Origin: Allodiplogaster sudhausi
Lineage: Eukaryota; Nematoda; Chromadorea; Rhabditida; Diplogasteridae
Reading direction: 5' to 3'
Assembly (NCBI GenBank): GCA_945643635.1
Contig: CALZFC010000031.1
Span: forward strand, 1,963,501 to 2,027,500
DNA length: 64,000 nucleotides
The notes beneath the pieces were generated by a model. That model was not told where the DNA came from, made no database searches, and saw nothing but the letters and a program-made list of their open reading frames with translations. This document shows positions 49,037-58,300 of the stretch, piece by piece; positions within the stretch are counted from its first letter, which is position 1, and every line of letters starts with the position of its first letter. A program made the translations under genes and the position numbers.

Positions 49037-51332
49037 GACTGGGAACAACGCCATGGGAGTCGCGCATGCATATGAGGAATGCAATGTCTACCAGTTCTGT
49101 CCTCTCTCTTCTCTCTCACCCTCTTTCATTCTCTCTGTTTCTCTCGCTCTCTCGCTTATGCTTTCTCGTCTGCATCTTTTTCTGTGGATCTCTCTCAGAC
49201 TTTCTCAGGATGTAGACAGAGTCAAAGGCGTTGTCCTCCTTCCCCGAGGGCGCGAATGAGATCTCGACACCAGGCACATATTTGTATATTTTGGAACAAA
49301 TAGGGAGATCAGAGCACGAGAAAGTTAGAGAGGAAACAAAGGAGACGCAGTGCTAGGAGGAAGAAAAACTTGGGAAGGAAAGAGATGCATTGAGAGTGAG
49401 AGAAAGAGAGAGAGAGAGAAAGAGAGAGAGAGGAAGAGGAAGAGGAAGAACTGAATTGCATAAGATAGGGGGAGGGAGGGAAGGAAGGAAAGAAAGACAA
49501 GTAGAACGACGAATGACGCCATCGGGTGGCTAGTCATCCAACTCGTAGTCAGCCTCTCCAACCACATCAAACATCACAAAGAATCATTTGAAATATTATT
49601 CGACTGCAAAAGTCACGCGAAGAATCTGCAAGAAAAAAAACATTAAATGAATAATCGAAGAGAAAATATATTTTATCTAAAATTAAGTTATATAAAATAT
49701 GATCTTCAGCTCCCTTTTCTCTGCAGAAAAGGCACGAGACCTGTGAAGCATCCGAACAAGATTGTCTCTGTTACAATGAGCGTCTTCCTCTACCAGATCA
49801 TCAAATTGGTACCTTTTTCGCTTATATCATTTTTGCAGTAGTTTATTCTTATTTTCTTGTAAATCTTCATGAGAAGCTCGGGGAACGAATTAGTTGGAAT
49901 ATTAATTGTGAGTCGTGTCAAATCTCCAATTGTATTTCAGGATGCCGTGAAGAACACAATCAGCTTGTCGGGCAGCTTCGAATTGGTATTTTTATCCCTT
50001 TTTATAATTATTAAAATATAAGATTTATTTATTTATTAATAAAGTTACTTATTTATCTGATAGATGAAATCTTGAATTAACCATAAGATTTTGCAATTGG
50101 CAAGATTACAACCTTGAGAATCTCCAAAGCTAGACGAGAAGTTACACTGCTTCACGATTTTAATGATTTTATCAATTTTATTCTGTTCCATTTTCGTATG
50201 ACATCAACAGGAGAATTAAACATTTGATTGCATGGCAAGCATAATTGCAAGGTGCTTAATCTATGATTCTTTTTTGATATTCTGGTATACTTTTCGCCTT
50301 GCAATGGAGGAAATAGAGATCATTGGAGTGTGGCAACGCAGAAGTGGCACTTGAAGTGGCATTAGATAGCCTAGCCGAGAGGGGCGGCGGGGGTCGCTGA
50401 CACTGGCCTGAACTCCTTCAGGTAGTCCCGCGTCCGCGTGTATCTCAAATCGAAACATTTTGCTCTTTCTCTCTACCATCTCTCTCTCTCTTCTCTTCCA
50501 CTTTCTTCCACTTTCTCTCTCTCTCACTCTCTCTCTCTACCTCTTGAGCCACTTGCGCACTTGCCCATGCGCGTCAGTGTAAATGACGCGTTCCTCAAGC
50601 GTGCTGGGACCGAGAAGGCGGAAAAGCCGTTTCGACTGAACAGGAGGGAGTTGCGATTAAAGAAAGCGACCAAAGATCAGGAATTGCCTTTTTGCCTGCA
50701 TGATGTTACATGACACGCTGCAGTTGCAATGGTACAGTTCTGTTATGAGTAGGAATGTAATGCTTTAGAAAGTAATAGAGCAAAGAAAAGAAGAAAAAAC
50801 AAATGGAAACAGAGAAATTTTTATATGCATACTTGTAGTTCCGCCTATTTCCTGCATACTGTTACCCAGCTTCCATGACTGACCTCCTTGAACTCCTGCC
50901 GCCAGCCGGCCACAGACTTCTTGTGCATTGACTCGAGTCGGAAGGACTGCCCCTTCAGAACCCCCTCCTCTATCGTGATCAGACCTAAAAAGGAGATGGC
51001 GGGTAGAACACGGTAGAGCAGAGAGTGAGAAAGAGAAAGAGGGAAAAAGACGGAGAGAGAGAGAGAGAGGGTAAAAGACAGAGAGAGACAGAGAGAGAGA
51101 AAGACAGAGACAGATAGAAAGAGAGAGAGAGAGAGAGGGAGAGAGCCACTAACCAGTGGAGGAGACCATCTCGATGCCGACCTTGTCGTCTCCTTCGGCT
51201 GGCTTGTCAAACTCGACGAAGCCAGTGTCCTCGTTGAAGGGCTTCCCTGTCATGAAACCAAGCTCGCGGTAGGTGTCCAGGCCATCCAGAGAAGTCGCCG
51301 TCACTCTGCAAAGGGAACGGGGGAACGGAGAG

Positions 51333-51367
<35 letters not shown>

Positions 51368-54300
51368 AGGTGCAGAAGATTGAGAAAAGTACGGTTTTGA
51401 ATGGACTAGACCGTGTACTTAGTGAAATCGTAAAAGAATAGTATTCTATGCGCCTAGAGTCTTCTCGAGTCGACAACCAAAAGGTGAGAAGAAAAGCATT
51501 CTTTGATCTGTTGAAAGCCAGCTTGTCCTTTATTATTTAGCGAAGGCTTTCAGCTTATCTTCACTGTGAAAGTGTGGATAGAATATGCGCTCTTGAAATA
51601 TTCAAAATGGAGAGGCAGTGAAGGACGAGAGAGAGGGGAGAAGTAGTGAAGAGAAAGAGAGACATAGAGAGAGAAACAAAGAGAGAGAGAGAAAGAGTGA
51701 AGGAAAGAAATCGAGAGAGATACAAAGAGAGAGAGGGAGAGAGAGAGAAAGAGTGAAGGGAGAGTACAGAGAAGTGTGTTTTCCCCGCGTTAGGAGCATC
51801 GTCCACAGTAGATTCTCCAGAAAAGCCTTAAGAATTGCCCCCTGGGAGCACTTCAGAGACTCTTCTTCTTCCTTCTCTCTTTGAGGTGCGAACGGGGCCG
51901 AAATAAATGGTTTGGGCAAGAGCGGGCGGATATGTTTCCTATGACTTTGCACCTTGCACCATGGCAGGGAAGAAAGCGATGCTGGGAAAGGATTACCCTT
52001 GCTAATGGTAAGAAAAAAACAAGTCAATAGTTGGAACTGATTTATTTAATTACGTAATTATACTTACGAAATGTTGACTGGCGGCCGGTCGAACATCGGC
52101 ACTTCGGACAGCTGGACCTCGAGCACCTCGTGGTAGGGACCGCGCATTGGCTCAGGGAAACTGGAGGAGAGAGGAGAGAAAGAGAGAGAGAGAGAAAAAG
52201 AGAAAGAGAGAGAGAGAGAGAAGGAGGAGCGAGAGTATAAGAGAAATGGAGGGAGAGAGAGAAGTAGCGAGAGAGCAATGATCTCACAATCAGAGAAAGA
52301 ATGAGAGATATCATTTACCGTTCTCCTGAAGAAGTCCGTGTTTCCCATCGACCAACGAACCAAGAAATCGGTTCGAGAATCGGGGGCAGAGGAACGAGCA
52401 ATTCTGAGAGGGAAAAGGAAAGAAAATGAGCGGAAGAGAGAAAATAAGGATTATGATGTGATATGACAGGTATAGTTACTAATCTTCGTTGCTATTACCA
52501 TAAGAATTGTAGTAACTGGCTGTCTACATACATCTTTTCATTAATATTCTGCGTTGTGAAAGGTGTACTTATTTTAATGCATAAAAAAAAACTAAAAGTG
52601 GAGAAGAGAGGAAAAGAGACCTGAGCCAGTGCTTCGGCACTGTCCGCAGGAGAGGGCGCAGTTGTCGGAGAAGAAGGGCGAGATCGGACGGGCCCAATGG
52701 CAACGCTCCTCCTCGCGCCACTTCTTGCACGACTTGTAGATGTCTTGGCAAGGGCCTGTAGATCAAAATCTCACTAATGTTATCCTCTGTCAAATCTTGT
52801 CATTACAATATATTCGTTTCAAGAGCCAAAAGATTATGTTTAAGAAAATGCCTGTGTGTATGTACTTCCCCAATATTATATACATAAGCAACAATTAATA
52901 CAACTAAAGAAAAAAAGAATGCTACCGTACGCTTGCATCCGGGTCCCATCCAGCCATCGGGGCACTGGCAGCGATTGCCTGATCTCTTCGGTATGCAAAC
53001 GCCACCCCTCCCGCACGTCTCCGGGTCTCGCGCATCGCAGTAGTGCACCACTCCAAGAGATACGATAGACAATGATAGTACAGTAATCCGGCAGATTTAC
53101 TCATGATGAGATACTCAACAATATTTTGTATGTATACATATGAAAAAGTATAAACAAAGATTACGCCTGAACTCGGTTTTTAATTATAAAGGGCCCTTCG
53201 ATCCCTCCTTGGTACCAAGATCCTGGGCGGGACTGTACGTTCTCAACAACAGAAAATTTCCTTCTCCTTCGCGTTGCTTTCCTGATCTTATTGCTTTTCT
53301 AAATGATCTCTCTACATCTCGCTTTTCTGTCTCTCTCAATCTCTTTTTTCTTCCATCGCTCCCCTTTTCTTTCAAAGCTGTCTCATCCTTTCTGCTCTCG
53401 TTTTATCACCTCTGCCGTTCCAGTATTTCGATCTGCCTGCGTTAATTGCTTTATTTGCAAAAAGAGTAAGCGGTATGCTTTTTTTATTGGAACTTTCAAT
53501 GTCGTTTTACGACTTGAATGTCACGTTATGGATAAGAGGATATTATTTTTTTATTAAGATTGATTTTTATTTTTTAAGCTAAATTTATTAATTCGCACCA
53601 AAATGATGGTGAGATTGCTGCTAAAACATGGGTTCATTTCTCTCTCAAATCGCGCAACTTCTCATCTTGTTTCCTGCTTGTGAAAAGAAGGCAGTTTTGC
53701 TCTCGTCGTTGAAACCGCAACCTGTTGCTGTTTATATGCATTTCGACAACAACCCGTTGGGGGAATTATGACACTTGGAGGCGAATGAGAGATAGAGAAG
53801 AGAAAGAGAGAAAGAAAGAGAGAAAAGGGACAAAGAGAGTTTGAGAATGCGCAAAAGTGGGAGAGAAGGTGAACGATCAAGCAGTTGAAAAGCGTCTTCA
53901 AGGTTTATAATGCGCACGTATTAAACAGCAACAATACGTGCGAGAAAAAGAGGTTTAATGGGGAGAGGAACCGTGAGGGTAATATAAAGACTATCCATTG
54001 AAAGATGAGTGAGAGATGAGGAGGGAAAGAAAGGAAGAGAGTGAGAAAGAAAGATGACTGTTACAAATGAAGAAGAATTAGAATGATGTGGTACCTGCTT
54101 TGGTTGTGACTTGTGCATGGGAGAACGGAAGAAGCTGCAGCAGAAGAGGAAGAAGAACGAAGAGGGCCAAGTGAGTTGGCAGGCCGAGGGGAGAAGAATA
54201 GAAGAGCGCCATCCTCGTACGCCTCAGGGCCAGTGAGTTTCTCAACTGCCCTCGGGGAGCTTCCTGTGAAGGACATGCAATAGAGGGTTCACTTGAATTG

Positions 54301-54722
54301 CTTAAATCGAACCATCTGCATCAACAATCCCATTATTTAAAATCATAAGTATGTAAATGACAAGGATATGTAATGTGGCTTAGAGAAGGACCGTCAGTGC
54401 AAAGAAAGAGAGCATGCACTTCAAGCCTCGTTTTCTCTAACTCTCCAGCCAGAATTCTCTCCCTCGCTTCCTAAAGGTGGAAGGTTCTGACTTTAAATTT
54501 TTTCTGATGATTAGCACGTCAGAAACATAAAGAGAGCTGTAAGAGACTGTAAGATGTCTATAAATGGTCCTTGTGCAACGTAAACGCAAAGCAATCGTTC
54601 AACATTTCTTTAATGAATGCAGAACCCAACGCTCTCATTTCTCCTTACCTCTGCTTCTCTATTTCTCGCTTTCTATGTACATACATACATACATGTATAC
54701 ATACATTTATCCGCATATCCTA

Positions 54723-54753
<31 letters not shown>

Positions 54754-55338
54754 TCTGCCCTGGGATACATCCCCTTCCCAATGGCTATTCCAGTTGCGCG
54801 CCCTTCCTGTTTCACTCATGGAACAACAAGCACACCAGACATTAGTAAGATTCGAAAATATAGCATGGTGAAATTATTTTAAAAAAATAAATAATTTAAG
54901 GCACGTTCCATATTCTTAATATTTCTATATTTCAGTACTGGATCGATGATTTTCTGACATGGCGGCCAGAGCTCTACGAAGGAGCAACGGAGATCTTTCT
55001 GTCCTCTGGAGACATTTGGATTCCCGAATTCTCGCTCTATTACAGGTGAGATTGCTCTCTCTCTCTCTATTAATCTCCTTTCTCTCTCTCTGTCTCGTCT
55101 CGCCTCTCTCTCTCTCTCCGTCTGTTCTAGGCCTTACAAGTAAGTAACAATGAAGCTGAAGAGGAGATTGGCACAAAAGGAGAAAATGTATGTAAAGTAC
55201 AATCATTTGCAAGCGCTATCAAGTAAAAGTGATAGCCGGCTATGGCGCATTTTGACATGAGCCGAAATTGCCAAGCAATTCTCAGCCTTGCGTCAATGTC
55301 GACTTTGGTGGAACGTCCGAAACCCTAAGCGGAAGAGT

Positions 55339-55387
<49 letters not shown>

Positions 55388-58300
55388 GATAGAGAGACAG
55401 CGACAGGCAGAGAGAACGAGAGAGAGAGAGAAAAGGAGAGAGAGAACGAGATAGAGAGACAGAGACAGCGAGAGGCAGAGAGAACGAGAGAGAGACAGGG
55501 AACAAGAGAGAGGAGCACGAGAGAGAGACAGCGAGGGGGCAAAGAGAACGAGAAAGAATGAGCCAAAGTGAAACAGTATTTTGGAGGTTGTTCAGTGAAG
55601 TGTTGTCCAACACGCGAACGGGCGGCGCTATTCAAGTGGCGAGCCGTTTAGGTTCTCAGAAAAAGGGATGAAGGTGAAAATGTGAGGGAGAAAGCTGCGG
55701 CACCACGCAAAAGTGCTAGTTATCGTGGCAGGACAAGCTTGACAATCTCTCTCTCTCTCCCCCTCTCTCTTTCCTTCTCTCTCTTCCTCTCTCTCTCACT
55801 CTCTCTTTCCTTCTCTCTCTTCCTCTCTTTCTCTCACTCTCTTTTTCCATCGTTTGCCCCGTATCTCTTTTTATTCTTAACGACCTATCACTTTCTTATT
55901 GTAAGTCTTTCTCCAATTCTGTCCTCTCTCATTACATCGCTCTCTCTCTCTCTCTATCTCTATCATTGTGCTCTCTCCTACTTGCACTGCTTCTTCCTGC
56001 TTCAGATGTTTTCACAACTTACTGCCAATGACATTCACTAAATAACACTCAACAGCGTAGAAACCGTAGTCATAAGCTGCCAAAAAGGGAAAGATAAATA
56101 TAATAAAGAAATAAATCAGTACCAGGGGGAAGAGTGGAAAATACGGAGAAATTACGTGACATGTAGGTTGACAAAGAGCGCGAGTGATGAATGGAAGAGA
56201 TTGCATTGTAGTGCTAGAAAGGGATTGAATGAAGGAAGCATTGAAAGTGATAGTCGCCCCCTCCCCTCTCTTCTCTGCTAACCGGTCTGACCTCAGACTT
56301 CTCTTCTCTTGCCGACCTCGCAGGATTCCAAGTACATCATTACTTTGAGACAGTCAAGGTCGCGCTCCTCTTGACTTAGTAGTAGTTCACATCGGAACAC
56401 ATGAAGAGGGAGAAGCTGAACAAGGGAGGTATAGAGAAATCAAGAAAAGTGTTGAGAGAGAGAAAGACAGGAGACAAATAGGGAGAGCGAGATAGAGAGA
56501 GATAGGCAGAGAAAGAGCGAGAGAGAAAAAGAGAGAGAGAGAGAGAGCGAGAGAGAGCGAGAGAGAGAGATGGAGCTGAAAGGAACACGATCGTGACGAA
56601 TATTTCGCAAAACCCTTAAAAAGGTCAGCCAAAAGAAACTCATTTTCCCTTCAAGGCTTCAAAGATGAACACACGGTAGTTGCATTGCAAAATTTCATGG
56701 AAGCAGTCTATGAGAGGAAGTTTGCATACAGCCGAACATTGATCAGGAATAATGGAAATGATGTTGTATGTTTTATGTATGTCTGAAAAAATAAAAGAAA
56801 CCTAGATTGTTTACAAAATAGTAACTGTCTTTAAGTATCTTCAAAAATAAAAAGAAAAAAAAACTGACTGGAAGCCACCTTCTTCACAGCCACAACTTCA
56901 ACGACGCTGCGAAGCTGCAGTCGAACAACGACTTGCGAGTGAACCACACCGGCCACATCCGATACTACATCCCCTTCTCCACTGAAAGTCTCTGCAAACT
57001 CGACGTCAAGTTCTTCCCTTTCGACGTGTACGGACACCTTTTTATTCATTTAAATATTTTAGTTTTTTTTGATAAATCAAATTCATAAAAAAAATTTTCA
57101 TAGAATTTATGTATTCGCATATGATTCTTTATTAAGCCTGATCTAGCACAATTAAGAATCAAGACTTGTTCAGCCAGCAATGCACTCTTCTCTTTGGCTC
57201 TTGGGCACACTCCAACGATTCGATAAAGTACTCACTCTACTCGCAGAATCTCTCTCTCATCGACTTCTACGACAATCAAGAGTGGGAGTTGGATACGGTA
57301 ACTGAATCAATACCCTCTTCAATCTCATCGAATATTACGGTAGATCACGAGTGACCATTCAAGATACACAGCAACATCAAGTCGGACGGCTTTCTCTATG
57401 ATTACTTGGACCCTCCACTCTTCTGGGAGATGATCATCATGGACCTCGTGGTCGTCAGGCAGAGCTTCTACTATGGCAAGGCTTTTTAATCCGTTATTTA
57501 AATGATTTATGTATAATGTATATATTTTGTTACAATTTCAGTGTTCAACCTTGTGATCCCGAGTACAATCATCACTCTTGTCGCCGTCATTGGCTTCCAT
57601 ACCCCGAGTACGAGCGGGCGAGTTCGGTATGCTCTTGAACTCTCTTTGTTACTGCCAACAGTACAATTTTGTTTTCAACATTGTTTCTAACAAATGTTAC
57701 TGTAAAAAAGACAGAAATGATTCTAATAAAATTCTACTCACAGCGACGCAAAGTTCCGGCTGGGAATCATGACTCTCATGAGTATGTCCGTCATTCTTCT
57801 CGCCATCGTCGAAGACATGCCCAAGTTCAGCATGTGGAGCACGCGCAAGGGAAGAGGCTCCTTCTCGGGCATTCCGCTCATAGGTACACATGGCATGACA
57901 AGTCGGACAATTAACAAGTACAAGGAATGAAACATGAGTTGTGACAATTGAGAGTGTTCAGGCCTGTACTACTTTATTCTGCTGGCGATCATCGGTCTGT
58001 CCACCGTGACCACGTCGATGTTCGTGTTCCTCGAGCGTGACTACCGCGTGACTCGTCGTATTCCGTGGTATCTCCGCTGGCTCGCATTCGATCTCCGGCC
58101 GACTCCACGGTCCGCTTTCTTTCCCATTTCTTGTAATAAAAGGTTTCAAAACCTTTCTTCTGTAATGAAAGATAATGATAATTTGCAGTGGCCTGAACGG
58201 GCCTCGCTTGAATCTCCGACGAAGTCAGAGTCACGGATTTCCCAACGGCGACGATGGCCAGACTACGGTTAGAAACGTTTAGCCTTTCTTCGCAAGACTT

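Follow-up and report, generated by a model that had tools for sequence, protein, structure and literature searches.

What becomes of a heme-binding barrel when it stands behind extracellular-type modules in a protein with a signal-like N terminus? The question is raised by a gene at positions 50371..54212, on the minus strand, of a 64,000-nt stretch of contig CALZFC010000031.1 from the nematode Allodiplogaster sudhausi (hereafter the window, in which all positions are counted). We conclude that this gene is almost certainly an intact ortholog of Caenorhabditis elegans mab-7 whose barrel derives from a nitrobindin, and comparison of aligned residues indicates that heme binding has very probably been lost in MAB-7. 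The explanation as a whole, which joins these two points with descent from ShKT-nitrobindins (nematode proteins in which an ShKT module precedes the same barrel) and with a role as an extracellular adaptor, appears likely to us.

The gene and its family

Nine minus-strand exons rebuilt from the DNA encode exactly 323 amino acids with consistent phases, from the ATG at 54212 to the TAG at 50371. A preliminary description of this DNA had proposed this model and had read it as one gene joining a hydrophobic signal-like N terminus, an EGF module, an ShKT module and a barrel of nitrobindin fold. The model is reproduced exactly, and the reading is borne out by Pfam, the six-cysteine pattern and the orthologs. 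The barrel matches PF08768 THAP4_heme-bd (residues 134-290, E 1.9e-10, 41.5 bits with a cut-off of 25), and ten barrel strands, as had been expected of a structure prediction, are present in the AlphaFold2 (AF2) model of the Steinernema ortholog. The ShKT module matches PF01549 ShK (residues 81-119, E 1.9e-5, 25.6 bits, cut-off 20.9) and has its cysteines at 82, 89, 98, 112, 116 and 119. Because the Pfam scores of the EGF region fall below their cut-offs (EGF_2, residues 44-78, 17.4 bits, cut-off 22.1; hEGF, 17.2, cut-off 29.3; EGF_Teneurin, 14.5, cut-off 24.3), the EGF assignment is based on the six-cysteine pattern present there and on the orthologs; the region also weakly matches an EGF chain of EDIL3 (E 0.007). 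The EGF and ShKT modules contain all 12 of the protein's cysteines. Signal-like N termini were judged throughout by simple hydropathy and the -3/-1 rule, not by a trained predictor. The N terminus here is strongly hydrophobic and has an allowed -3/-1 site between SHA and QV, with a small residue before the Gln.

A search with the window protein returned 40 relatives, 36 with nematode names and four unnamed (E 2.0e-121 to 9.9e-49, 44-64% identity), 25 of which cover at least 80% of the query. The EGF and ShKT cysteine patterns are both present in 31 of them; the remaining nine are 185-286 aa long and several are marked partial. Four Caenorhabditis relatives are 57-58% identical to the window protein, and two others, P0006 (Toxocara) and P0029 (Dirofilaria), carry the source name ‘Protein male abnormal 7’. 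When the window protein is aligned with 22 of the 40 relatives, conserved residues extend through both of the last two exons. A profile search raised the family to 54 proteins, adding Plectus (P0161) among others; P0166-P0169 and P0172-P0174 were excluded from the family counts as short pieces. The MAB-7 rows, with the window protein within them, form one group, apart from the related ShKT-nitrobindins, in two quick trees, with Shimodaira-Hasegawa-like approximate likelihood ratio test (SH-aLRT) supports of 97 and 99. These were quick searches of 97 of 171 aligned rows, since 148 passed a length filter and every second ShKT-nitrobindin row was then taken; the second tree was run without three more rows.

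The domain order was thus found again in other nematodes, a check that the preliminary description had proposed, and the idea that the fusion is a new combination gives way to that of a family conserved among nematodes, some of whose members bear the MAB-7 name. A species-specific domain fusion is ruled out by the 40 relatives and the 54-protein profile search. Furthermore, public annotation already holds the architecture: P0028 bears the name ‘Epidermal growth factor-like domain and ShKT domain and Calycin-like domain-containing protein’, and the C-terminal part of the relatives is already tagged THAP4-like or calycin-like in databases. The gene itself is ordinary and conserved, a further member of the known MAB-7 family.

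The heme site and the ShKT-nitrobindins

According to a published account of Arabidopsis nitrobindin (PMC10135655), His158 is the iron ligand, His76 lies on the opposite side, and conservation of the two residues extends from bacteria to man. The window protein has Lys296 in the proximal His158 column and Tyr196 in the distal-side His76 column. The proximal His is found in 0 of the 36 readable MAB-7 rows (46 rows with the window included, 10 of them gapped at this column of the L-INS-i alignment), where the residues are Lys in 29, Arg in 4, and Gln, Val and Thr in one each. The preliminary description had considered the heme ligand probably lost, and for the proximal His this holds.

The register of these columns deserves comment. 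A combined MAFFT --auto alignment left the register of the last strands uncertain; L-INS-i and hhalign agree at the ligand column and were used instead. A HMMER register that places the KPFxEDTGF stretch on the distal-His strand of THAP4, and that gives the window protein Asn at the distal position, was set aside. We prefer the L-INS-i/hhalign register, in which this stretch is an insertion, because it is consistent with the AF2 strands. The inward direction of Lys296 is taken from its alignment column, not from model coordinates.

A further comparison comes from the same genome (351.8 Mb, 382 contigs), in which a PF08768 search gave two very similar loci, L003 and L004, each with an ShKT exon followed by a barrel ending QEHTFIRY. 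A joined model of this type had 133 protein matches, of which 120 are listed and underlie the counts given here; all those with species names are nematodes, Trichuris included. Among the 121 rows of these ShKT-nitrobindins, His stands at the proximal column in 113 of the 115 that are readable there, and at the distal-side column in all 120 readable ones. An allowed cleavage site follows the hydrophobic stretch in 23 of 24 N termini examined, and none was found by the simple rule in P0129. The idea that departure from the cytosol goes together with the loss of heme is therefore too simple, given that proteins with such signal-like N termini keep both residues. Of the 120 listed rows, 87 show the ShKT cysteine pattern and none the EGF pattern. 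Some of the 33 rows without the ShKT pattern are short or partial and others are full length, and the latter may genuinely lack the module. P0054 has no Pfam ShK match, yet its six cysteines are invariant across a 34-row alignment.

The two families appear to be joined by more than the barrel. When their profiles are compared with hhalign, the alignment spans ShKT and barrel together, and the ShKT-nitrobindin copy in the same genome has three barrel introns at the same column and phase (2, 1, 0) as mab-7. The ShKT exon is of phase 1-1 in both genes; its flanking introns are one and six columns apart between them, a difference beyond the resolution of the linker alignment. The ShKT-nitrobindin gene lacks introns that correspond to window introns 4/5 and 8/9. 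For one of its introns (L003 5077-5153) the best reading uses gcaagt, a GC donor, the donor at this position in mab-7 being GT. Because the ShKT-nitrobindins keep the His residues and share three intron positions and phases, MAB-7 looks like a relative that gained an EGF module and lost heme, and the apparent loss of the ligand is seen in the MAB-7/EGF branch.

Loop conservation, proposed history and competing readings

Hairpin loops were sorted by strand order in two models into those at the end with the two His positions and those at the opposite end. Mean loop conservation in MAB-7 (46 rows) rises from 0.52 at the heme end to 0.71 at the far end, and in the ShKT-nitrobindins (121 rows) it falls from 0.73 to 0.42; the p-values of 0.002 and 2e-5 are indicative only, as loop residues are not independent. 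The far-end trend in MAB-7 rests on two large loops, because two small far-end loops are poorly conserved (0.41 and 0.40) and one heme-end loop is high (0.86). The family-specific motifs FDRP and E[DN]TGF occur in 41 and 34 of the 46 MAB-7 rows, respectively, and in 0 of 121 ShKT-nitrobindin rows. We infer from this shift that the barrel may have passed from cofactor binding to a role in protein contact.

In the simplest history, an ancestral ShKT-nitrobindin gene would have duplicated, a phase 1-1 EGF exon would have been inserted in the MAB-7 branch, and heme binding would have been lost there as the proximal His gave way to a basic residue, Lys296 in this species. The protein might then act outside epidermal cells as a matrix adaptor, with the EGF and ShKT modules binding partners and the heme-free barrel serving as an interaction module through the conserved loops opposite the old heme mouth, and so could help to shape the rays of the male tail. 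Genetics in C. elegans links mab-7 to the sense organs of the male tail, specifically to sensory-ray morphogenesis. Among published works, one cites the mab-7 paper of Tsang et al. 2007 among male-tail morphology genes and putative apical matrix components (PMC11304992), and another lists a Heligmosomoides mab-7 ortholog among male-tail development genes (PMC10225086). We give the adaptor mechanism an even chance of being right. Short of that, and offered tentatively, is a broader proposal: that MAB-7 is a neofunctionalised nitrobindin, a secreted heme protein that was duplicated, received an EGF exon, exchanged its His for a basic residue and shifted the conserved side of its barrel to the far end to become a matrix-shaping factor, while its sister ShKT-nitrobindins, from Trichuris to Caenorhabditis, are widespread extracellular proteins of heme or nitric oxide (NO).

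Several observations weigh against parts of this account. The MAB-7 name rests on source annotations of orthologs, not on the C. elegans MAB-7 sequence itself. Support for ShKT-nitrobindin monophyly is only 82 and 54 in the two trees, where long branches meet, and so MAB-7 might have arisen inside the ShKT-nitrobindins. The loops were assigned to ends by strand order, and one of the far-end loops, KPFxEDTGF, is modelled with low confidence (P0002 residues 200-208, predicted local distance difference test < 50). With regard to heme, Lys is able in principle to ligate it, the distal-side His is retained in 25 of 44 readable MAB-7 rows, and the human THAP4 domain, which binds heme, is also without the exact PTIPxFxY motif. 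One could propose that MAB-7 still binds heme through the Lys or the distal-side His. We consider this very unlikely, given the absence of the proximal His from every readable row and the Tyr that replaces the distal-side His in the window gene. The motif [FY]PT[ILM]Px[FV]xY, present in Arabidopsis and in 104 of 121 ShKT-nitrobindin rows, occurs in 0 of 46 MAB-7 rows; because of THAP4, it is treated as supporting evidence and not as defining heme binding.

The barrel might instead remain a carrier, in line with the preliminary suggestion of a different ligand outside cells: some other small hydrophobic molecule would occupy the former heme pocket, with Lys296 as its anchor. This is unlikely, as MAB-7 shows its lower loop conservation around the heme mouth, and the fold match to fatty acid-binding proteins reflects a common barrel, not a common function. 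A somewhat stronger competitor, although still one that we doubt, holds that the N terminus stays uncleaved as a signal anchor, which would make MAB-7 a membrane protein. The N terminus is strongly hydrophobic, and the title of Tsang et al. 2007 reportedly calls mab-7 a transmembrane protein, which counts against secretion. Against an anchor stand the allowed site in the window protein and the presence of at least one such site, by the simple rule, in each of the 20 orthologs examined; mean hydropathy is at most 1.1 in every 19-residue stretch that begins beyond residue 45. There is next to no chance that the EGF/ShKT exons and the barrel exons are two separate genes, and we regard this reading as ruled out: all phases fit, the same exons recur in a second genomic copy, and 31 of the 40 relatives show both cysteine patterns in one protein.

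If the preferred reading of MAB-7 as a nitrobindin relative that lost heme is correct, a barrel without its heme ligand provides a mechanism, open to test, for a matrix factor of the male tail. The same reading points to a sister family that bears signal-like N termini and keeps the ligand. Nematodes are generally regarded as unable to make heme and depend on outside sources, which is why this family is of interest: its members would be extracellular heme or NO proteins in such animals. In the open-access literature searched, we found no work that describes MAB-7 as a nitrobindin that lacks heme and has a sister family in which the ligand is kept.

Genomic setting and comparison with known systems

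A second mab-7 copy lies on contig C19 of the same genome (locus L013). Its nine exons are all identical in length to those of the window gene, with 90.7-98.5% DNA identity, and AG/GT is kept at 16 of 16 ends of the eight introns. The nonsynonymous and synonymous divergences (dN 0.015, dS 0.136; dN/dS 0.11) reveal purifying selection on one continuous protein. All three kinds of nitrobindin-type gene seen in this genome are paired (contigs C31/C19, C136/C5 and C35/C27), the third pair (L014 and L015) having EGF, ShKT and barrel pieces like those of P0171. With a dS of this size in the mab-7 pair, the pairing looks more like the result of a large or whole-genome duplication than like two haplotypes.

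On the plus strand, a Cys-loop ligand-gated ion channel has exons at 49727-49808, 49941-49985 and 54936-55045 (joined peptide: PF02931, E 1.5e-17). The channel intron 49986-54935 contains the entire mab-7 gene, on the opposite strand to the channel, and this nesting is kept at the second copy. Simple repeats of (GA)n or (CT)n are very frequent in introns and between genes, around 51000-52300 as well as elsewhere in 49500-55500.

Table 1. Exons and heme-site codons of the mab-7 ortholog, in window coordinates.
Feature	Positions	Strand	Basis
Exon 1: ATG and hydrophobic signal-like sequence, possible cleavage between SHA and QV after residue 33, end phase 1	54095..54212	-	Rebuilt model; kept in second copy
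Exon 2: six-Cys EGF module, symmetric phase 1-1	52931..53050	-	Model; EGF_2 17.4 bits (below cut-off); alignment
Exon 3: six-Cys ShKT module, symmetric phase 1-1	52621..52755	-	Model; PF01549 25.6 bits (above cut-off)
Exon 4: barrel start (LPPILEPISWFVGRWE)	52319..52403	-	Model; Pfam; ortholog alignment
Exon 5: barrel, family-specific loop SEVPMFDRPP	52068..52160	-	Model; loop conservation; motif counts
Exon 6: barrel, family-specific loop KPFNEDTGF	51154..51305	-	Model; loop conservation; motif counts
Tyr196 codon, column of Arabidopsis nitrobindin His76 (distal-side His)	51269..51271	-	Residue by alignment; place counted from exons
Exon 7: barrel, GLITIEEGVLKG	50884..50984	-	Model; ortholog alignment
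Exon 8: barrel, last strand but one and beginning of the last strand	50541..50635	-	Model; ortholog alignment
Lys296 codon, column of heme-iron ligand His158 of Arabidopsis nitrobindin	50552..50554	-	Residue by L-INS-i alignment, hhalign register agrees; place counted from exons
Exon 9: end of last strand, C-terminal tail, TAG stop	50371..50443	-	Model; ortholog alignment; second copy

Among known systems, the closest is MAB-7 of nematodes, which the window protein resembles in domain order, length (about 300 aa), cysteine pattern and identity to its 40 relatives; nothing of substance sets it apart, and the family is known here from relatives other than the C. elegans protein. Certain MAB-7-like proteins, P0170 (Onchocerca) and P0171 together with the loci of the third gene pair, likewise have EGF, ShKT and barrel. 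P0170 and P0171 group with MAB-7 (SH-aLRT 99 in the first tree) and are also without the proximal His, having Ser and Gln, respectively. These two differ in their long branches and in the absence of the FDRP and E[DN]TGF loops from both; P0170 has several EGF repeats, and P0171 has an ShKT module by cysteine pattern alone, without a Pfam ShK match. The ShKT-nitrobindins (ShKT and PF08768, for example P0041 and P0054, most of them about 230-245 aa long) share with MAB-7 the two modules, the three barrel introns and a signal-like N terminus, whereas their rows have no EGF pattern, carry both heme His residues and are without the family-specific loops. Finally, the nitrobindins proper, represented by the C-terminal domain of human THAP4 (3ia8), Arabidopsis At1g79260 and Mycobacterium tuberculosis Rv2717c, have the THAP4-type ten-strand barrel that is predicted for MAB-7. 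MAB-7 differs from them in the replacement of the proximal heme His, in the extracellular modules placed in front of the barrel and in offering no evidence of heme.

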